Shown here piece after piece: positions 1 to 6,615 of a DNA stretch of 41,764 nucleotides. Location: positions 164,180 to 205,943 of the forward strand of contig NZ_FNPT01000007.1 of the NCBI RefSeq assembly GCF_900107375.1. Reading direction: 5' to 3'. The translations under genes were made by a program, and so were the position numbers. The notes beneath the pieces were generated by a model that saw only the letters and a list, made by a program, of their open reading frames with translations, was not told the origin of the DNA and ran no database searches. Numbering within the stretch: the first letter of the stretch is position 1; every line of letters begins with the position of its first letter. This DNA is from Lysobacter sp. yr284. Lineage in GTDB: Bacteria; Pseudomonadota; Gammaproteobacteria; Xanthomonadales; Xanthomonadaceae.

Positions 1-95
1 GTAGGAGCGGCGCAAGCCGCGACCGCGGCAACCCAACTACGACGAAACCCTCGGCGCAGCTGCATTGCCGCAGTCGCGACTCGCGTCGCTCCTAC
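1..95. repeat. Dispersed palindromic repeat, GTAGGAGC family
   Basis: The element opens with GTAGGAGCGGCGCAAGCCGC and closes with the imperfect reverse complement ending GTCGCTCCTAC, so the transcript could fold into a long hairpin. Relatives lie at 22674-22810, 36813-36902 and 41684-41764. It sits just downstream of the mnmG stop and could help end that transcript. The left edge may continue outside the window. Confidence 0.8.
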
Positions 96-153
96 ACTCG
101 CAATCGCCGCATCGATGCGTCCGGCGAGAACGCCGGCCGCCGCCCTGCCCCGC

Positions 154-2043
<1,890 letters not shown>

Positions 2044-2082
2044 GGGCGTGGGGTTCGGGATGCGAAGAGCCGGGCCGCCGGC

Positions 2083-2106
2083 GAGGGCGAGGGCGAGGGC
2101 GAGGGC
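2083..2106. repeat. Four tandem GAGGGC hexamers upstream of mnmG
   Basis: Four perfect copies of GAGGGC lie 40-63 bases upstream of the mnmG start codon, so they fall in its promoter or 5' untranslated region (reading GCCCTC on the coding strand). Short arrays like this can change copy number by slippage, which makes this a possible expression-tuning site. That role is inference. Confidence 0.6.
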
Positions 2107-2195
2107 GCCATTTTCGCACGCTCGGGCCGGGCGGGCTTTCGGTTCGGCGTCGCTAGCGCGGCGACGAATCCCGGGTCCCGGATCCCACTACGAAC

Positions 2196-2213
2196 TTGGC
2201 ACAGTTCATGCTT
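2196..2213 (+). promoter_or_regulatory. Sigma-54-type (-24/-12) promoter
   Basis: The sequence TTGGCACAGTTCATGCTT matches the RpoN consensus (TGGCACR-N4-TTGCW). The invariant GG is at 2198-2199 and the GC at 2210-2211, at the required 12-base offset. The one clear departure is A instead of T in the -12 element. It faces right, away from mnmG, and predicts transcription starting near 2223. No upstream activator site was recognised. Confidence 0.6.
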
Positions 2214-2222
2214 GAGATATCC

Positions 2223-2337
2223 ATGCACCTTGCGGGGCAGGCGCTAGACGCCGGCTGGAATTGGAACAGGGGCTGGCCAAGCGCTCGCGGGGGAAGCCGG
2301 GGGCCGAATGTCGGGGGACATTCGGCCCCTTTTTATT
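2223..2337 (+). ncRNA. Candidate sigma-54-dependent small RNA, about 115 nt
   Basis: No credible reading frame lies between the sigma-54-type promoter and a textbook intrinsic terminator, so the expected product is a short RNA. It would fold into a small hairpin (GGCG-CTAGA-CGCC, 2240-2252), a less structured stretch with GGA trinucleotides (TGGAATTGGAACAGG, then GGGGGA), and the terminator stem. Repeated GGA motifs are typical of RNAs that bind CsrA/RsmA, but GGA is common in such a GC-rich genome, so that role is speculation. A leader for a downstream gene is unlikely, because the next gene is on the other strand. Confidence 0.5.
2300..2337 (+). terminator. Strong intrinsic terminator
   Basis: A perfect 13-bp stem (GGGGCCGAATGTC, 2300-2312, pairing with 2317-2329) has a GGGG tetraloop and is followed by TTTTTATT on the plus strand. 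No protein gene on the plus strand precedes it in the window, so it must serve a non-coding transcript or be an orphan. Confidence 0.9.
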
Positions 2338-2444
2338 GCCTGTCGTTCAGGCCCGGCTTGCCTGGGCCGGCCCATGCGGGGCCATGCGGGGCCATCGCCC
2401 CGGCCGCATCGCCCCTGCGGGGCCTTCGATGCAACCCATTGATC

Positions 2445-2478
2445 CAAAAAGAAAAGCGCGCGTAGATACGCGCGCTTT
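2445..2478 (-). terminator. Intrinsic terminator on the minus strand
   Basis: A perfect 10-bp stem (AAAGCGCGCG at 2453-2462 with 2469-2478, loop of six) is followed on the minus strand by TTTTCTTTTTGG. It points toward the plus-strand terminator at 2300-2337, so the two transcripts converge on a gene-free gap. Confidence 0.85.
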
Positions 2479-2590
2479 CCGGTCGCGCCCGCGATGCGGG
2501 GCGGAATGGGCGCCGACGCCTGACGGGGACGGAACAGGGGGGATCCGTGATTCCTCGCCAGGCGCCGACATAGAAACCTGTCCTTACCGA
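2445..2590 (-). ncRNA. Candidate structured small RNA with a C-rich loop
   Basis: Upstream of the minus-strand terminator, the RNA could form a 10-bp stem (2557-2566 with 2515-2524, two G-U pairs). This encloses a 5-bp hairpin (2544-2548 with 2529-2533) whose 10-base loop carries six consecutive C residues. C-rich loops are the pairing element of Xanthomonas small RNAs such as sX13, which target G-rich ribosome-binding regions. No similarity to sX13 itself is claimed. The 5' end is a guess, because no convincing promoter was resolved. It could instead be a long 3' tail of the lipoprotein gene at 2766-3305. Confidence 0.35.
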
Positions 2591-2680
2591 AAACGTCCAA
2601 ATACGACGTAAGCGGTCAGTAGCGGTAGATTGCTGTCACTTCGTCAGGAACGCAAGTGCGCGCGGTTCCAGTTCCAAGCA

Positions 2681-2704
2681 AACAGGGGCCCGAAGGCCCC
2701 TGTT
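2681..2704 (-). terminator. Hairpin terminator after the Tyr-rich lipoprotein gene
   Basis: AACAGGGGCC at 2681-2690 pairs perfectly with 2695-2704 across a four-base loop (TTCG on the minus strand), about 60 bases past the stop codon at 2766. The minus-strand tail is TTTGCTTG, a weak U tract, so termination may be partial. Confidence 0.6.
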
Positions 2705-2765
2705 GGTGTCATGAACGGTCGTAATCGGCCGATAGTCGGTGTCCGCCCTGTTCAGCGGAGCCGGA

Positions 2766-3305
2766 TCAGCGCTCCACGTCGCGCCAGGCGCGGCCGCCGT
2801 CGCGGCGTACCGACGGCGTGGACGGCGCGCGCGGGGCCATCTGCGGCCGAGCCATCTGCGGGCGGACCTGCGGCGTGGCGCCCGGATTGTTGTTGCGCGG
2901 GCCCCAGGCGCCGCCGCCGACCGGGCGGGTGTCGCGCCACGGCAGGCCGCCGTCGCCGCGGTTGGGCGGGTTGTTGCTCGTCGGCGGGTTCGGCCGGTTG
3001 GGCCGGTGCGGGCGGTTGGGGTAGTAGTGGCGCGGATAGCCGTAGTAGTACGGATTGCCGTAATAGCCGTAGTACGGGCTGCCGTAGTAGCCGCCGTTGC
3101 GGAAACGGTAGGACTCGCCGTACGGGTAATAGCCGTAGCCCGGCCCGTAATAGCCGCCGCCGTAGCCGCCGTAGTAGTTGTAGTCCACGCTCGGCCGGCC
3201 GTAGTAATACGTGCCCGGACCGCCGCCGCCGCGGACGGCGTAGTCGGAGACGCAGCCGGCCAGCAGGCCGGCTGCAAGAAGCGGAATCATCAGTTTGCGG
3301 ATCAT
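2766..3305 (-). CDS. Tyr/Gly/Asn-rich putative lipoprotein
   Basis: The 179-residue product begins MIRKLMIPLLAAGLLAGC, a type II signal peptide with lipobox LAGC and Cys18 as the lipidation site. Residues after it are dominated by Tyr, Gly, Asn and Pro in irregular repeats (YYGGYGGGYYGPGYGYYPYG and similar). A Pro/Asn/Arg-rich section follows, then a C-terminal segment ending DGGRAWRDVER. The start at 3305 was chosen because the signal peptide begins there and a GGGGGG ribosome-binding stretch lies just upstream; a longer frame to 3431 adds 42 residues with no family features. The protein is probably an envelope-anchored, disordered or adhesive lipoprotein. No named family was recognised. A second small lipoprotein gene lies 82 bases upstream on the same strand and may be cotranscribed. 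Confidence 0.75.
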   Translation of the reverse strand: MIRKLMIPLLAAGLLAGCVSDYAVRGGGGPGTYYYGRPSVDYNYYGGYGGGYYGPGYGYYPYGESYRFRNGGYYGSPYYGYYGNPYYYGYPRHYYPNRPHRPNRPNPPTSNNPPNRGDGGLPWRDTRPVGGGAWGPRNNNPGATPQVRPQMARPQMAPRAPSTPSVRRDGGRAWRDVER

Positions 3306-3387
3306 GGCAGACCCCCCGGTTAGGGTTTCAGATTCTGCCTGAAGCATTGAACTCGGGCTTAACTCGCCCGACCCGCAAATGTCAGGT

Positions 3388-3543
3388 TCAGGCCGCCACG
3401 GCCGGCGCCGCGGGCTGGTCCAGCTCGACATGGGGCGCCGGCTGCGGGTGGTCGGCGGTGGGATTCATGACCGGCGGGGGATAGCAGCCGGTGAGCAAGG
3501 TCAGGACCAGGCTTGCAGCCAGGCAGAGCGAGAGTTTGCGCAT
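3388..3543 (-). CDS. Small putative lipoprotein, 51 aa
   Basis: The short frame encodes MRKLSLCLAASLVLTLLTGC, a clear type II signal peptide with lipobox LTGC and Cys20. About 30 mature residues rich in Pro, Ala and His follow, starting YPPPVMNPTADHPQPAP. The ATG at 3541-3543 is preceded by AGGGGA at good spacing, and this start puts the signal peptide at the N terminus; a longer frame to 3636 does not. The size and make-up fit the many tiny envelope lipoproteins of proteobacteria, and no function can be assigned. It is on the same strand as the Tyr-rich lipoprotein and could share its promoter. Confidence 0.65.
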   Translation of the reverse strand: MRKLSLCLAASLVLTLLTGCYPPPVMNPTADHPQPAPHVELDQPAAPAVAA

Positions 3544-3963
3544 GGAACATCCCCTGTAGTGGGCGCCGACGCGGGGCGTCGCGGGTCGTGGTGGTCCGGA
3601 TGCGCGGGCGCGTCCGGGGTGGCGAGGAGCCAACATGGCCTATCGACCCGCGAATGACCAGCCGGCGCGACCCATCGGCGCTCGCCGCCCGGCACGCGTC
3701 CGATGCGCCATCGCCCATTGCGCGACCGGCACTCCTGCGGGTCTTCCTTAAACTATCGGCGAAGAACGGCGCGATTGCGGTACGGGTTCACAAATCGTTG
3801 CCTGCTGCGACAGCCGGACATGCACCGCGCCTGACTTTGGGGGATTGCGCCGGACCGCACCGTCGCGGGAACCTTCCCGGATGCGTCCGGTCGCACCAGT
3901 ACCGGCCGCGACCGTCCGTGCTGCGGCCGCGACGGCGTCTCTCTACTTCCCGGCCGGTACTCG
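3544..3963. other. Divergent intergenic region without a recognisable gene
   Basis: These 420 bases separate the two minus-strand lipoprotein genes from the plus-strand exporter operon, so they should hold promoters for both. No clear sigma-70 or sigma-54 promoter, repeat or small gene could be identified. Confidence 0.5.
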
Positions 3964-4621
<658 letters not shown>

Positions 4622-4650
<29 letters not shown>

Positions 4651-5632
4651 GCGCATGGCGACGCATGCGATCGCGATCGCCGCGGCCTGGGCGCTGCTGG
4701 CGCCGGCCGCCGGCGCGGTGGTGCTGACCGGCGAGGTGCGCTCGGCCGGCGCGCAGCAGATCTACACGCCGCAGGCCAACACCGCGCCGGTGTCGATCCG
4801 CTACTTCGTGCCCGAGGGCCAGGCGGTGAAGGCCGGCGAGGTGGTGCTGCGCATCGATCCGGGCCAGGCCGGCACCCAGATTCCCGAGCTCGACGCCAAG
4901 ATCGAACAGGCGCGGGCCAAGTCGGCCAAGGAACTGGCCGAACTCGAAGTCAAGGCGGTCGATGCCGAAGTCGCGCTCGCCGACGCCGATGCCGCGCTGG
5001 CCACGGCCAAGGTCGAGGCGGCGATCCCGCGCGGGCTGATCTCGCAGCTGGACTACGACCGCCACCAGGGCGACCTGGACAAGACCGTGCGCGAACAGCG
5101 GCTCAAGCGCGAACAGCTCGACGCCGCGCGCGCCGCGGTCGCGCGCCGGCGCCAGGACGGCGAGCTGGAAACGCGCAAGCTCGGCGTGCAGCGCGATTAC
5201 TACGCCGCGCTGCTGCGCCAGTCGGAAGTGCGCGCCGAGCGCGACGGCATCGTCCTGCACGGGTTCAACAACAACTGGATCGGCGGGCGCATCGACGAAG
5301 GCAGCTCGACCATGCCCGGCAGCAAGGCCGGCGAGGTGGTCGGCAGCGGCGGCGCGATGCAGGTGCGGGCGTGGGCGCTGGAGCCCGACCGTCCCGGCTT
5401 GCGCGTCGGCCAGGACGTGCGGCTGAGCTTCGATGCGTTGCCGCGGCGCGAGCTGCGCGGACGCGTCGCCGCGATCGCCGGCGCGCCGGACCGCAAGTCG
5501 GAGTGGGGCGAGGGCCGCTACTTCGCCATCGACATCGACCTGCCGGCCGGCCACGGCCTGGCGCTGCTGCCCGGCATGAGCGTGCGGGTGACCGCGCCGG
5601 CCGCCGCCGCGGGCGCGGGAGCGGGGCGATGA
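4622..5632 (+). CDS. HlyD-like periplasmic adaptor, first of three
   Basis: This is a 336-residue periplasmic adaptor. An N-terminal signal or anchor (hydrophobic AIAIAAAWALLAPAAGA, residues 15-31) is followed by the first half of a lipoyl/barrel-sandwich domain (VPEGQAVKAGEVVLRIDPGQ, about 60-80). A charged coiled coil spans roughly 85-190 (DAKIEQARAKSAKELAELEV onward). The second half-lipoyl follows (RAERDGIVL), then a beta-barrel region (LRVGQDVRLSFDA). The ATG at 4622 is preferred because AAGG lies 8-11 bases before it; in-frame ATGs at 4634 and 4655 are alternatives. The stop overlaps the next start as ATGA. Such adaptors normally link an inner-membrane pump to an outer-membrane channel, but no channel gene is in this operon. 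Confidence 0.85.
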
Positions 5633-6615
5633 GCCGGCTCGTGCGCCTGGCCGCCGCGCTCGCCCTGGCCACGGCCTGCGCCGCCGCCGTCGCCGCGCCG
5701 CTGCGCGTGGACGGCGAGGTCTACGCGCGCCGGTCCTCGCCGCTGATGCCGCCGAACGTGGAACGGATGTGGCAGTTCGCGATCACCCAGCTCGCGCCCG
5801 ACGGCGCGCCGGTCAAGCGCGGCCAGACCGTGATCAGCTTCGACAGCAGCGACGTGATCAAGCAGCTCACCGAGAAGCGCAGCCAGCTCAAGGAAAAGCA
5901 GAGCGAACTGGAGAAGCTCGACCTGGAACTGGCCGAGCGCGAACGCACCGAGCGCTTGGCCACGGCCGAGGCGCTGGCGGCGCTGGAGAAGGCCAAGCGC
6001 AAGACCGAGCAGCCGGCCGAACTGATCGCCGGCATCGAGTACCGCAAGCTGGTGGTCGCGCGCCAGCAGGCCGAACGCAAGATGGAACTGGCGCGCAAGC
6101 GCGAGGTGCTGTCGGCCGAACAGCGCCGCCAGGAACGGCGTCTGCTGGCGGCCGAGCGCGATCAGTTGCAGGCCGACGTGGACCGCCTGCAGCGTTCGCA
6201 GAAAGCGCTCGACGTGGTCGCCCCGCGCGACGGGCTGATGATGCACCGGAGCAATTTCGAGGGCGAAAAATTCGACGTCGGCTCGCAGGTCTGGGTCGGC
6301 CAGACCGTGGCCGAGATTCCCGACATGGCCACGCTCGCGGTGCGCGCGGAACTGGCCGAGCGCGAGCTGTCGCAGGTGCGGGTCGGCGCGCCGGTGCGGA
6401 TCGTGGTCGAGGGCGGCGCCGGACGCGCGTTGCGCGGCAAGGTCGCCTCGGTCGGGCGCGCGGTGCGCAGCAAGTCGCAAGTGCAGCCAGTGCCGGTGCT
6501 GGACCTGGACGTGCAGCTCGACGACGCGCATGCGCCGTTGCGGCCGGGGCAGGCGGTGCGGGTGGAGATTTCGGCCGCCGCCACGCCGCCGGCGAGCGCG
6601 GGAGCGGGCCGATGA
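5629..6615 (+). CDS. HlyD-like periplasmic adaptor, second of three
   Basis: The 328-residue product starts with a cleavable signal peptide (MSRLVRLAAALALATACAAA..., probable cut after AVAA near residue 23). It then has a half-lipoyl segment with APDGAPVKRGQTVISFDSSD and a long, highly charged coiled coil (about 70-185, rich in Glu, Lys and Arg). The returning half-lipoyl (VVAPRDGLMMHRSNFEGEKFD) and a beta-barrel with a barrel-end motif (VRVGAPVRIVVEG, LRPGQAVRVEIS) follow. The start is the ATG overlapping the preceding stop. It resembles the neighbouring adaptors in layout but is clearly diverged from them in sequence, so the three are not a recent tandem duplication. Confidence 0.85.
   Translation: MSRLVRLAAALALATACAAAVAAPLRVDGEVYARRSSPLMPPNVERMWQFAITQLAPDGAPVKRGQTVISFDSSDVIKQLTEKRSQLKEKQSELEKLDLELAERERTERLATAEALAALEKAKRKTEQPAELIAGIEYRKLVVARQQAERKMELARKREVLSAEQRRQERRLLAAERDQLQADVDRLQRSQKALDVVAPRDGLMMHRSNFEGEKFDVGSQVWVGQTVAEIPDMATLAVRAELAERELSQVRVGAPVRIVVEGGAGRALRGKVASVGRAVRSKSQVQPVPVLDLDVQLDDAHAPLRPGQAVRVEISAAATPPASAGAGR

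Follow-up and report, generated by a model that had tools for sequence, protein, structure and literature searches.

Comparative analysis of a 41,764-nt stretch of Lysobacter sp. yr284 DNA (the window) and of related genomes establishes two conserved, structured small RNAs that are encoded convergently, one of them behind a conserved sigma-54 promoter element, and whose loops are complementary to each other. The first of these RNAs is asX1; the second lies on the opposite strand, carries a C-rich loop and is referred to below as the partner. We consider it rather likely that asX1 serves as a sigma-54-switched decoy, or sponge, for the partner. The conserved sigma-54 element and the convergent complementary partner appear to be new, whereas the RNA family asX1 is known. 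The features concerned, in window coordinates, are as follows.

154–2043, minus strand: mnmG (gidA), divergent neighbour
2196–2211, plus strand: sigma-54 -24/-12 promoter element (TTGGCACAGTTCATGC)
2226–2335, plus strand: asX1 small RNA (Rfam RF02235), three covarying helices, found by covariance model match
2263–2272, plus strand: conserved loop of asX1, GGAACAGGGG, which complements the partner loop
2299–2330, plus strand: asX1 intrinsic terminator with GGGG loop
2451–2480, minus strand: intrinsic terminator, probably the partner's; 13 pairs followed by TTTTT, read on the minus strand
2499–2583, minus strand: convergent C-rich-loop RNA, the partner (R2 match G000:C25:166678-166762 minus, 80 bits)
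2531–2546, minus strand: partner loop GGATCCCCCCTGTTCC
2603–2619, no strand assigned: dyad GTGAC-N7-GTCAC of the type found upstream of pilA, a presumptive PilR site (7/10 in the window)

Identity and structure of asX1

The initial annotation of this DNA had placed a probable undescribed small RNA next to mnmG. The neighbour was correctly named (154–2043, minus strand; TIGR00136, 876.9 bits), and the RNA, judged by its sequence match, is real but already has a name: it matches RF02235, asX1, over the full length of the model (positions 1–115 of 115) and scores 90.3 bits where the cut-off is 70, which is incompatible with its being undescribed. When the window was searched with Rfam for families such as CrcZ and GlmY, only RF02235 reached its cut-off.

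asX1 is a structured RNA of 110 nt, and the covariation of its stems, suggested earlier as a check, is readily found. In an alignment of 62 of the 67 representatives (L120, L121, L122, L123 and L124, which are divergent or longer, were omitted), three helices comprise 30 pairs with 93% of cells paired; 23 of the 30 pairs have changed on both sides, and 0 of 500 shuffles reach any of these measures. The hairpin and T run reported previously also hold up, as a terminator of 14 pairs with a GGGG loop followed by TTTTT; terminator-like sites number eight in positions 1–6000, compared with 2.2 in shuffles. As to the accompanying remark that no reading frame intervenes, open frames do overlap the block mechanically (e.g., 2196–2465 on the plus strand), but the stems show compensatory changes. 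The conserved unpaired parts of asX1 are G-runs, namely the loop (AATT)GGAACAGGGG, of which ACAGGG is kept in 60 of the 62 representatives, and the GGGG of the terminator loop, likewise present in 60 of 62.

Reads of asX1 have been reported from cells of X. campestris and Xylella (PMC12189769 for Xylella), and asX1 together with two other small RNAs has been linked to virulence (PMC12189769), no mechanism being found in the portions of the open-access literature covered. A tie of asX1 to sigma-54 or to a convergent partner was likewise not found in these portions.

The sigma-54 promoter element

The element consists of TTGGCAC at 2196–2202, six further bases and TGC at 2209–2211, so that GG and GC are separated by exactly 10 nt, the required spacing, as the initial annotation had stated. 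From the position of the promoter, the start of asX1 is expected at about 2223. The strict form TTGGCAC-N6-TGC occurs nine times in the 6.25-Mb genome, compared with four times for the reversed control. Among the other strict sites are ones preceding what we take, from the translations, to be a glnA-like frame and two pilin-like frames, and one of the nine (L133, at C35:115191 of the same genome) lies ahead of a frame that is presumably Ro60/TROVE-like.

Across 398 genomes, TGGC-N8-TGC is present at all 124 asX1 loci, although the RNA model by which these loci were found excludes the promoter. The distance from the C of GC to the start of the asX1 model is 12–15 nt in every one of them, and the bases separating the -24 and -12 boxes are variable. 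The comparison thus supports a strongly conserved sigma-54 promoter ahead of the small RNA. The contrary pattern named at the outset, a terminator kept in relatives while the promoter is not, was looked for, and the promoter is kept in 124 of 124 loci.

A separate observation concerns CRP/Clp-type sites (TGTGA-N6-TCACA) between mnmG and asX1, which score at least 9/10 in 15 of the 124 loci; the 12 listed all belong to genus g6, in which perfect or near-perfect sites lie about 39 bp before the asX1 -24 box (L002–L015).

Distribution of asX1

The RF02235 model matched 124 of the 398 genomes of the order, 122 of them among the 129 genomes of f1 (the family of the window, its own genome counted) and two in f12. 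When 47 genomes were searched with our own asX1 model, R1, 19 matches had an E value of up to 1. The promoter is in place at 11 of them; seven of the eight matches lacking it look like chance and were set aside. In G091 (L168), the R1 match is off-set and a sigma-54 element is present at the true start. Among the matches listed, the asX1 pattern occurs in Xanthomonas, Stenotrophomonas, Pseudoxanthomonas, Lysobacter, Arenimonas, Thermomonas and Rehaibacterium. A record titled Bacillus subtilis SK7B5 (L263) also carries the promoter–RNA pattern, probably through contamination or mislabelling.

In two f1 genomes, G247 and G333, asX1 was not detected by the models used; G247 keeps the partner with no sigma-54 element nearby, and in G333 both RNAs are absent by these models. 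Loss of RpoN was considered as the cause of a missing asX1 and rejected, RpoN being present in 22 of 22 genomes tested.

A convergent RNA with a C-rich loop

Just 3′ of asX1, on the opposite strand, lies the partner, a hairpin with the loop GGATCCCCCCTGTTCC. In an alignment of 72 of 79 representatives (the genera of the seven omitted rows are otherwise represented), 96% of cells are paired and 14 of 17 pairs have changed on both sides, values reached by 0 of 500 shuffles. Read on the minus strand, the stems contain 145 G–U cells compared with 12 A–C cells, which places the RNA on that strand. Located by the motif GAACAGGG, the partner core is found beside 130 of 134 asX1 loci, 25–467 bp from the end of asX1; under the same rule it was not found at L032, L054, L057 and L175.

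The partner model, R2, has a single match (E up to 0.01) in each of 273 genomes out of 398. These comprise 128 of 129 genomes in f1 and, by our own count, 123 in f12 and a further 22 spread over six other families; under laxer filters, a second weak match appeared in one of 30 genomes (G021). The loop is nearly invariant across loci. In the window and in the loci of six relatives, no Rfam family matches the partner above its cut-off, and sub-threshold matches touch only its terminator region. The loop was likewise not found in the portions of the open-access literature covered. The partner is apparently an undescribed and widely conserved RNA, as far as sequence comparison can tell.

CRP-type sites occur 5′ of the partner in 6/6 f11, 3/3 f4, 57/126 f1 and 13/34 f12 loci (0–7% in shuffles; examples are L416, L418 and L424) and in none of the six f3 and three f2 loci; the partner may be controlled by CRP/Clp in some families. 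We also note that a Tyr/Gly-rich, lipoprotein-like frame (2766–3305, minus strand, in the window) follows the RNA pair in several loci (e.g., L003, L033, L117 and L175); no NCBIfam match was found for this frame.

Complementarity of the two loops

The asX1 loop GGAACAGGGG and the partner loop CCCCTGTTCC are perfect complements. A perfect complement of at least 9 nt (9–10 nt) to the partner loop is present in asX1 at 123 of 124 f1 loci, a count that bears on the asX1 side alone, the loop core having served to locate the partner. Shuffled asX1 sequences reach the observed mean complementarity in 0.3% of cases; when the partner hairpin is shuffled instead, 7.7% reach 9 nt anywhere. Loop–loop covariation cannot be shown because the partner loop hardly varies. 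Duplex predictions for the whole RNAs were dominated by generic GC pairing and were set aside.

A more independent look for convergent sigma-54 elements starts from the R2 model of the partner alone. In 27 of 28 f12 loci and in all six loci each of f3 and f11, such an element is present 3′ of the partner loop at a distance of 60–330 nt, compared with one, zero and zero elements, respectively, in the opposite orientation. Two f1 loci were scored as having none, though one of them (L409) has it at 320. The convergent element is also absent from all eight loci read in f2 (three), f4 (three), f5 (one) and f10 (one), suggesting that the partner has a role of its own.

The RNAs behind the convergent promoters of f12, f3 and f11 are overall unlike asX1. 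The hexamer CAGGGG is present in 25 of 27 of these RNAs in f12 and in 6/6 each in f3 and f11 (11%, 14% and 3% in shuffles), and in 106 of 124 asX1 RNAs of f1 (22% in shuffles). The f11 RNA is short, roughly 50–65 nt as judged by eye, and in most cases consists of CAGGGGGAATC and a terminator hairpin; it complements the partner loop on its other flank, over up to 12 nt. In f12 and f3, the match to the partner loop extends over only 5–7 nt.

Candidate activators

As the activator of asX1 we tentatively name PilR, which appears the likeliest enhancer-binding protein, an assignment to which we would give slightly less than an even chance. One line of evidence is a dyad derived from 33 regions with a sigma-54 element before pilin-type frames (30 fetched loci), where GTGAC-N7-GTCAC scores at least 8/10 in 82% of regions compared with 10% in shuffles. 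At this score, the dyad occurs within 300 bp downstream of asX1 in 94 of 124 loci (76%), other spacings giving 9–24%; upstream of asX1, the pilA-type dyad is found in 10% compared with 13% in shuffles. Near asX1, it sits 5′ of the minus-strand partner element: in the 240 nt that precede the partner loop on its 5′ side, a score of at least 8 is reached in 102/126 f1 and 28/34 f12 loci (9% and 13% in shuffles). The dyad is not conserved in f3 (2/6) or f11 (1/6). A control with 4-nt spacing is also frequent in f12 (26/34), f3 (5/6) and f11 (6/6) and lower in f1 (40/126), perhaps on account of CRP-type sites, though f3 has none.

The position of the dyad in f12 and f3 bears on this assignment. There, a second sigma-54 element on the strand of asX1 lies about 200–355 nt past the partner loop (23 of 28 f12 loci by our own count, 6/6 in f3), and behind it many loci have a conserved frame of about 60 amino acids (HHDLLIELGRVEMAM...), apparently a sigma-54-driven small protein; loci with both include L404, L437, L441 and L408. 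In these two families the dyad, where found, mostly lies some 50–80 bp before the second element and is probably the enhancer of that gene, which weakens a simple link between PilR and asX1. No such second element is seen in f1 (12 of 122 loci, compared with 23 for the reversed control), yet the dyad is kept in this family; its target there may be asX1, reached from a downstream position, or the partner.

The enhancer-binding proteins themselves provide a further line of evidence. Both genomes of genus g29, one of which is only 86% complete, carry asX1 behind its promoter, and each encodes just one strong enhancer-binding protein. These proteins fall in a GSFTGA group (64–88% identity), distinct from those that exceed the NtrC cut-off. 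Since members of this group lie about 0.7–4 kb from pilin-type genes in four genomes, we take the group to be of the PilR type. Xylella is reported to possess NtrC and PilR as its only enhancer-binding proteins (PMC3224663) and to carry asX1 (PMC12189769).

NtrC was considered as an activator and rejected: the best scores for TGCACY-N5-RGTGCA are similar to those of shuffles upstream of, within and downstream of asX1, and an NtrC-type site of at least 11/12 is present at none of the 124 asX1 loci. GlrR-, PrpR- and P. aeruginosa-like PilR motifs gave no clear enrichment upstream of asX1.

The decoy model and its alternatives

In the model that we favour, asX1 would base-pair with and sequester the second small RNA, whose convergent gene lies at a distance of between a few dozen and a few hundred bases. 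The C-rich loop of the partner hairpin would be of the kind that sX13 uses on G-rich motifs near translation starts, and the asX1 loop, with its GGAACAGGGG, would copy the motif that the partner is presumed to target. An active enhancer-binding protein, most likely PilR, would allow sigma-54 polymerase to make asX1; the partner would then be titrated and mRNAs with a GGGG motif freed, possibly including that of pilA itself. Expression, dependence on sigma-54 and PilR, pairing in the cell, the direction of titration and the targets are what we infer. Long hairpins could limit pairing, and the dyad is placed on the 3′ side of asX1, close to the partner. GGGG is present in 35 of 38 pilA-like leaders, making pilA a candidate target of the partner; energies calculated for its pairing with pilA leaders had no background for comparison and did not settle the matter.

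The same complementarity and arrangement could be read with the roles reversed: asX1 would be the effector acting on mRNAs, and the partner would control it as an antisense-type RNA. The reported asX1 reads in X. campestris and Xylella cells could also speak for this. We regard this as unlikely. The partner is the more widespread of the two (273 of 398 genomes, compared with 124 for asX1 by the Rfam model) and, in the loci read from f2, f4, f5 and f10, has no sigma-54 element converging on it; moreover, its loop is nearly invariant, whereas the asX1-like RNAs differ by family yet keep the complementary core. This retention of CAGGGG in dissimilar convergent RNAs of four families, where chance would give 3–22%, together with the fixed convergent arrangement, also argues against the two RNAs being independent, each carrying a motif of some third party such as G-rich ribosome-binding sites or an RNA-binding protein. 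That reading, which we hold to be quite improbable, draws on the lack of loop covariation, on the GGGG of the 35 pilA-like leaders, which suggests that motifs resembling the Shine–Dalgarno sequence and its complement are common here, and on the presence of sX13, another C-loop RNA, in 129 of 129 f1 genomes.

It is very improbable that asX1 acts mainly by sequestering CsrA/RsmA, an idea that extends the earlier speculation about its GGA-rich middle part. GGA does occur in the main loop of 52 of the 62 representatives, and 45 of 62 have it at a second site, which lends weak support to CsrA/RsmA binding. However, several genera have lost GGA (the loop GGA in g7 and g13), whereas 60 of 62 representatives retain ACAGGG, and the loop of the terminator reads GGGG. 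The feature that is kept in the asX1 loop is the G-run matching the loop of the convergent RNA.

A broader form of the decoy model is a doubtful extension in our estimation: an order-wide module of two RNAs, in which a C-loop RNA would restrain GGGG-led mRNAs (pilA being the candidate) and a convergent decoy would be switched on by PilR and sigma-54 through a downstream enhancer. On this reading, the bodies of the decoys differ between families, while promoter, position and CAGGGG core are kept. The dyad of f12 and f3, which probably serves another sigma-54 gene, makes the extension less likely.

Relation to known systems and significance

Besides CrcZ, which the initial annotation cited as the classic case, the RpoN-driven small RNAs known include GlmY/GlmZ and the Qrr RNAs. 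GlmY/GlmZ of enterobacteria resemble asX1 in the logic of a sigma-54-driven decoy RNA. GlmY is a decoy for a protein, RapZ, whereas the proposed target of asX1 is an RNA; the sequences are unrelated, and the window contains no GlmY/GlmZ match above the Rfam cut-off. CrcZ/CrcY of Pseudomonas share with asX1 the character of a sigma-54-dependent sequestering RNA, but asX1 is devoid, by eye, of the AANAANAA-type repeat of CrcZ/CrcY. CrcZ antagonises Hfq–Crc (PMC8657755).

The C-rich loop of the partner is similar in character to those of sX13 (RF02232) of Xanthomonas, which represses mRNAs with GGGG motifs via the C-rich loops CCCC and UCCCCCU (PMC3771888). However, sX13 has three hairpins and is located at polA, and the partner is a separate RNA: no RF02232 match for it was found in the window or in the loci of six relatives, and in this genome sX13 sits on a different contig. 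Co-occurrence of sX13 with asX1 was considered and proved uninformative, as sX13 is also present in seven f1 genomes that have no RF02235 match.

These results assign asX1 to a promoter class and supply it with a candidate activator and a molecular partner; they also add a widely conserved RNA with no match in Rfam 15. If the decoy model is true, Xanthomonas, Stenotrophomonas, Lysobacter and their relatives would possess a sigma-54 decoy RNA whose gene stands tail-to-tail with that of the small RNA it targets. If the order-wide module is true as well, the transcriptional regulator of the pilin would also lift a block on translation.
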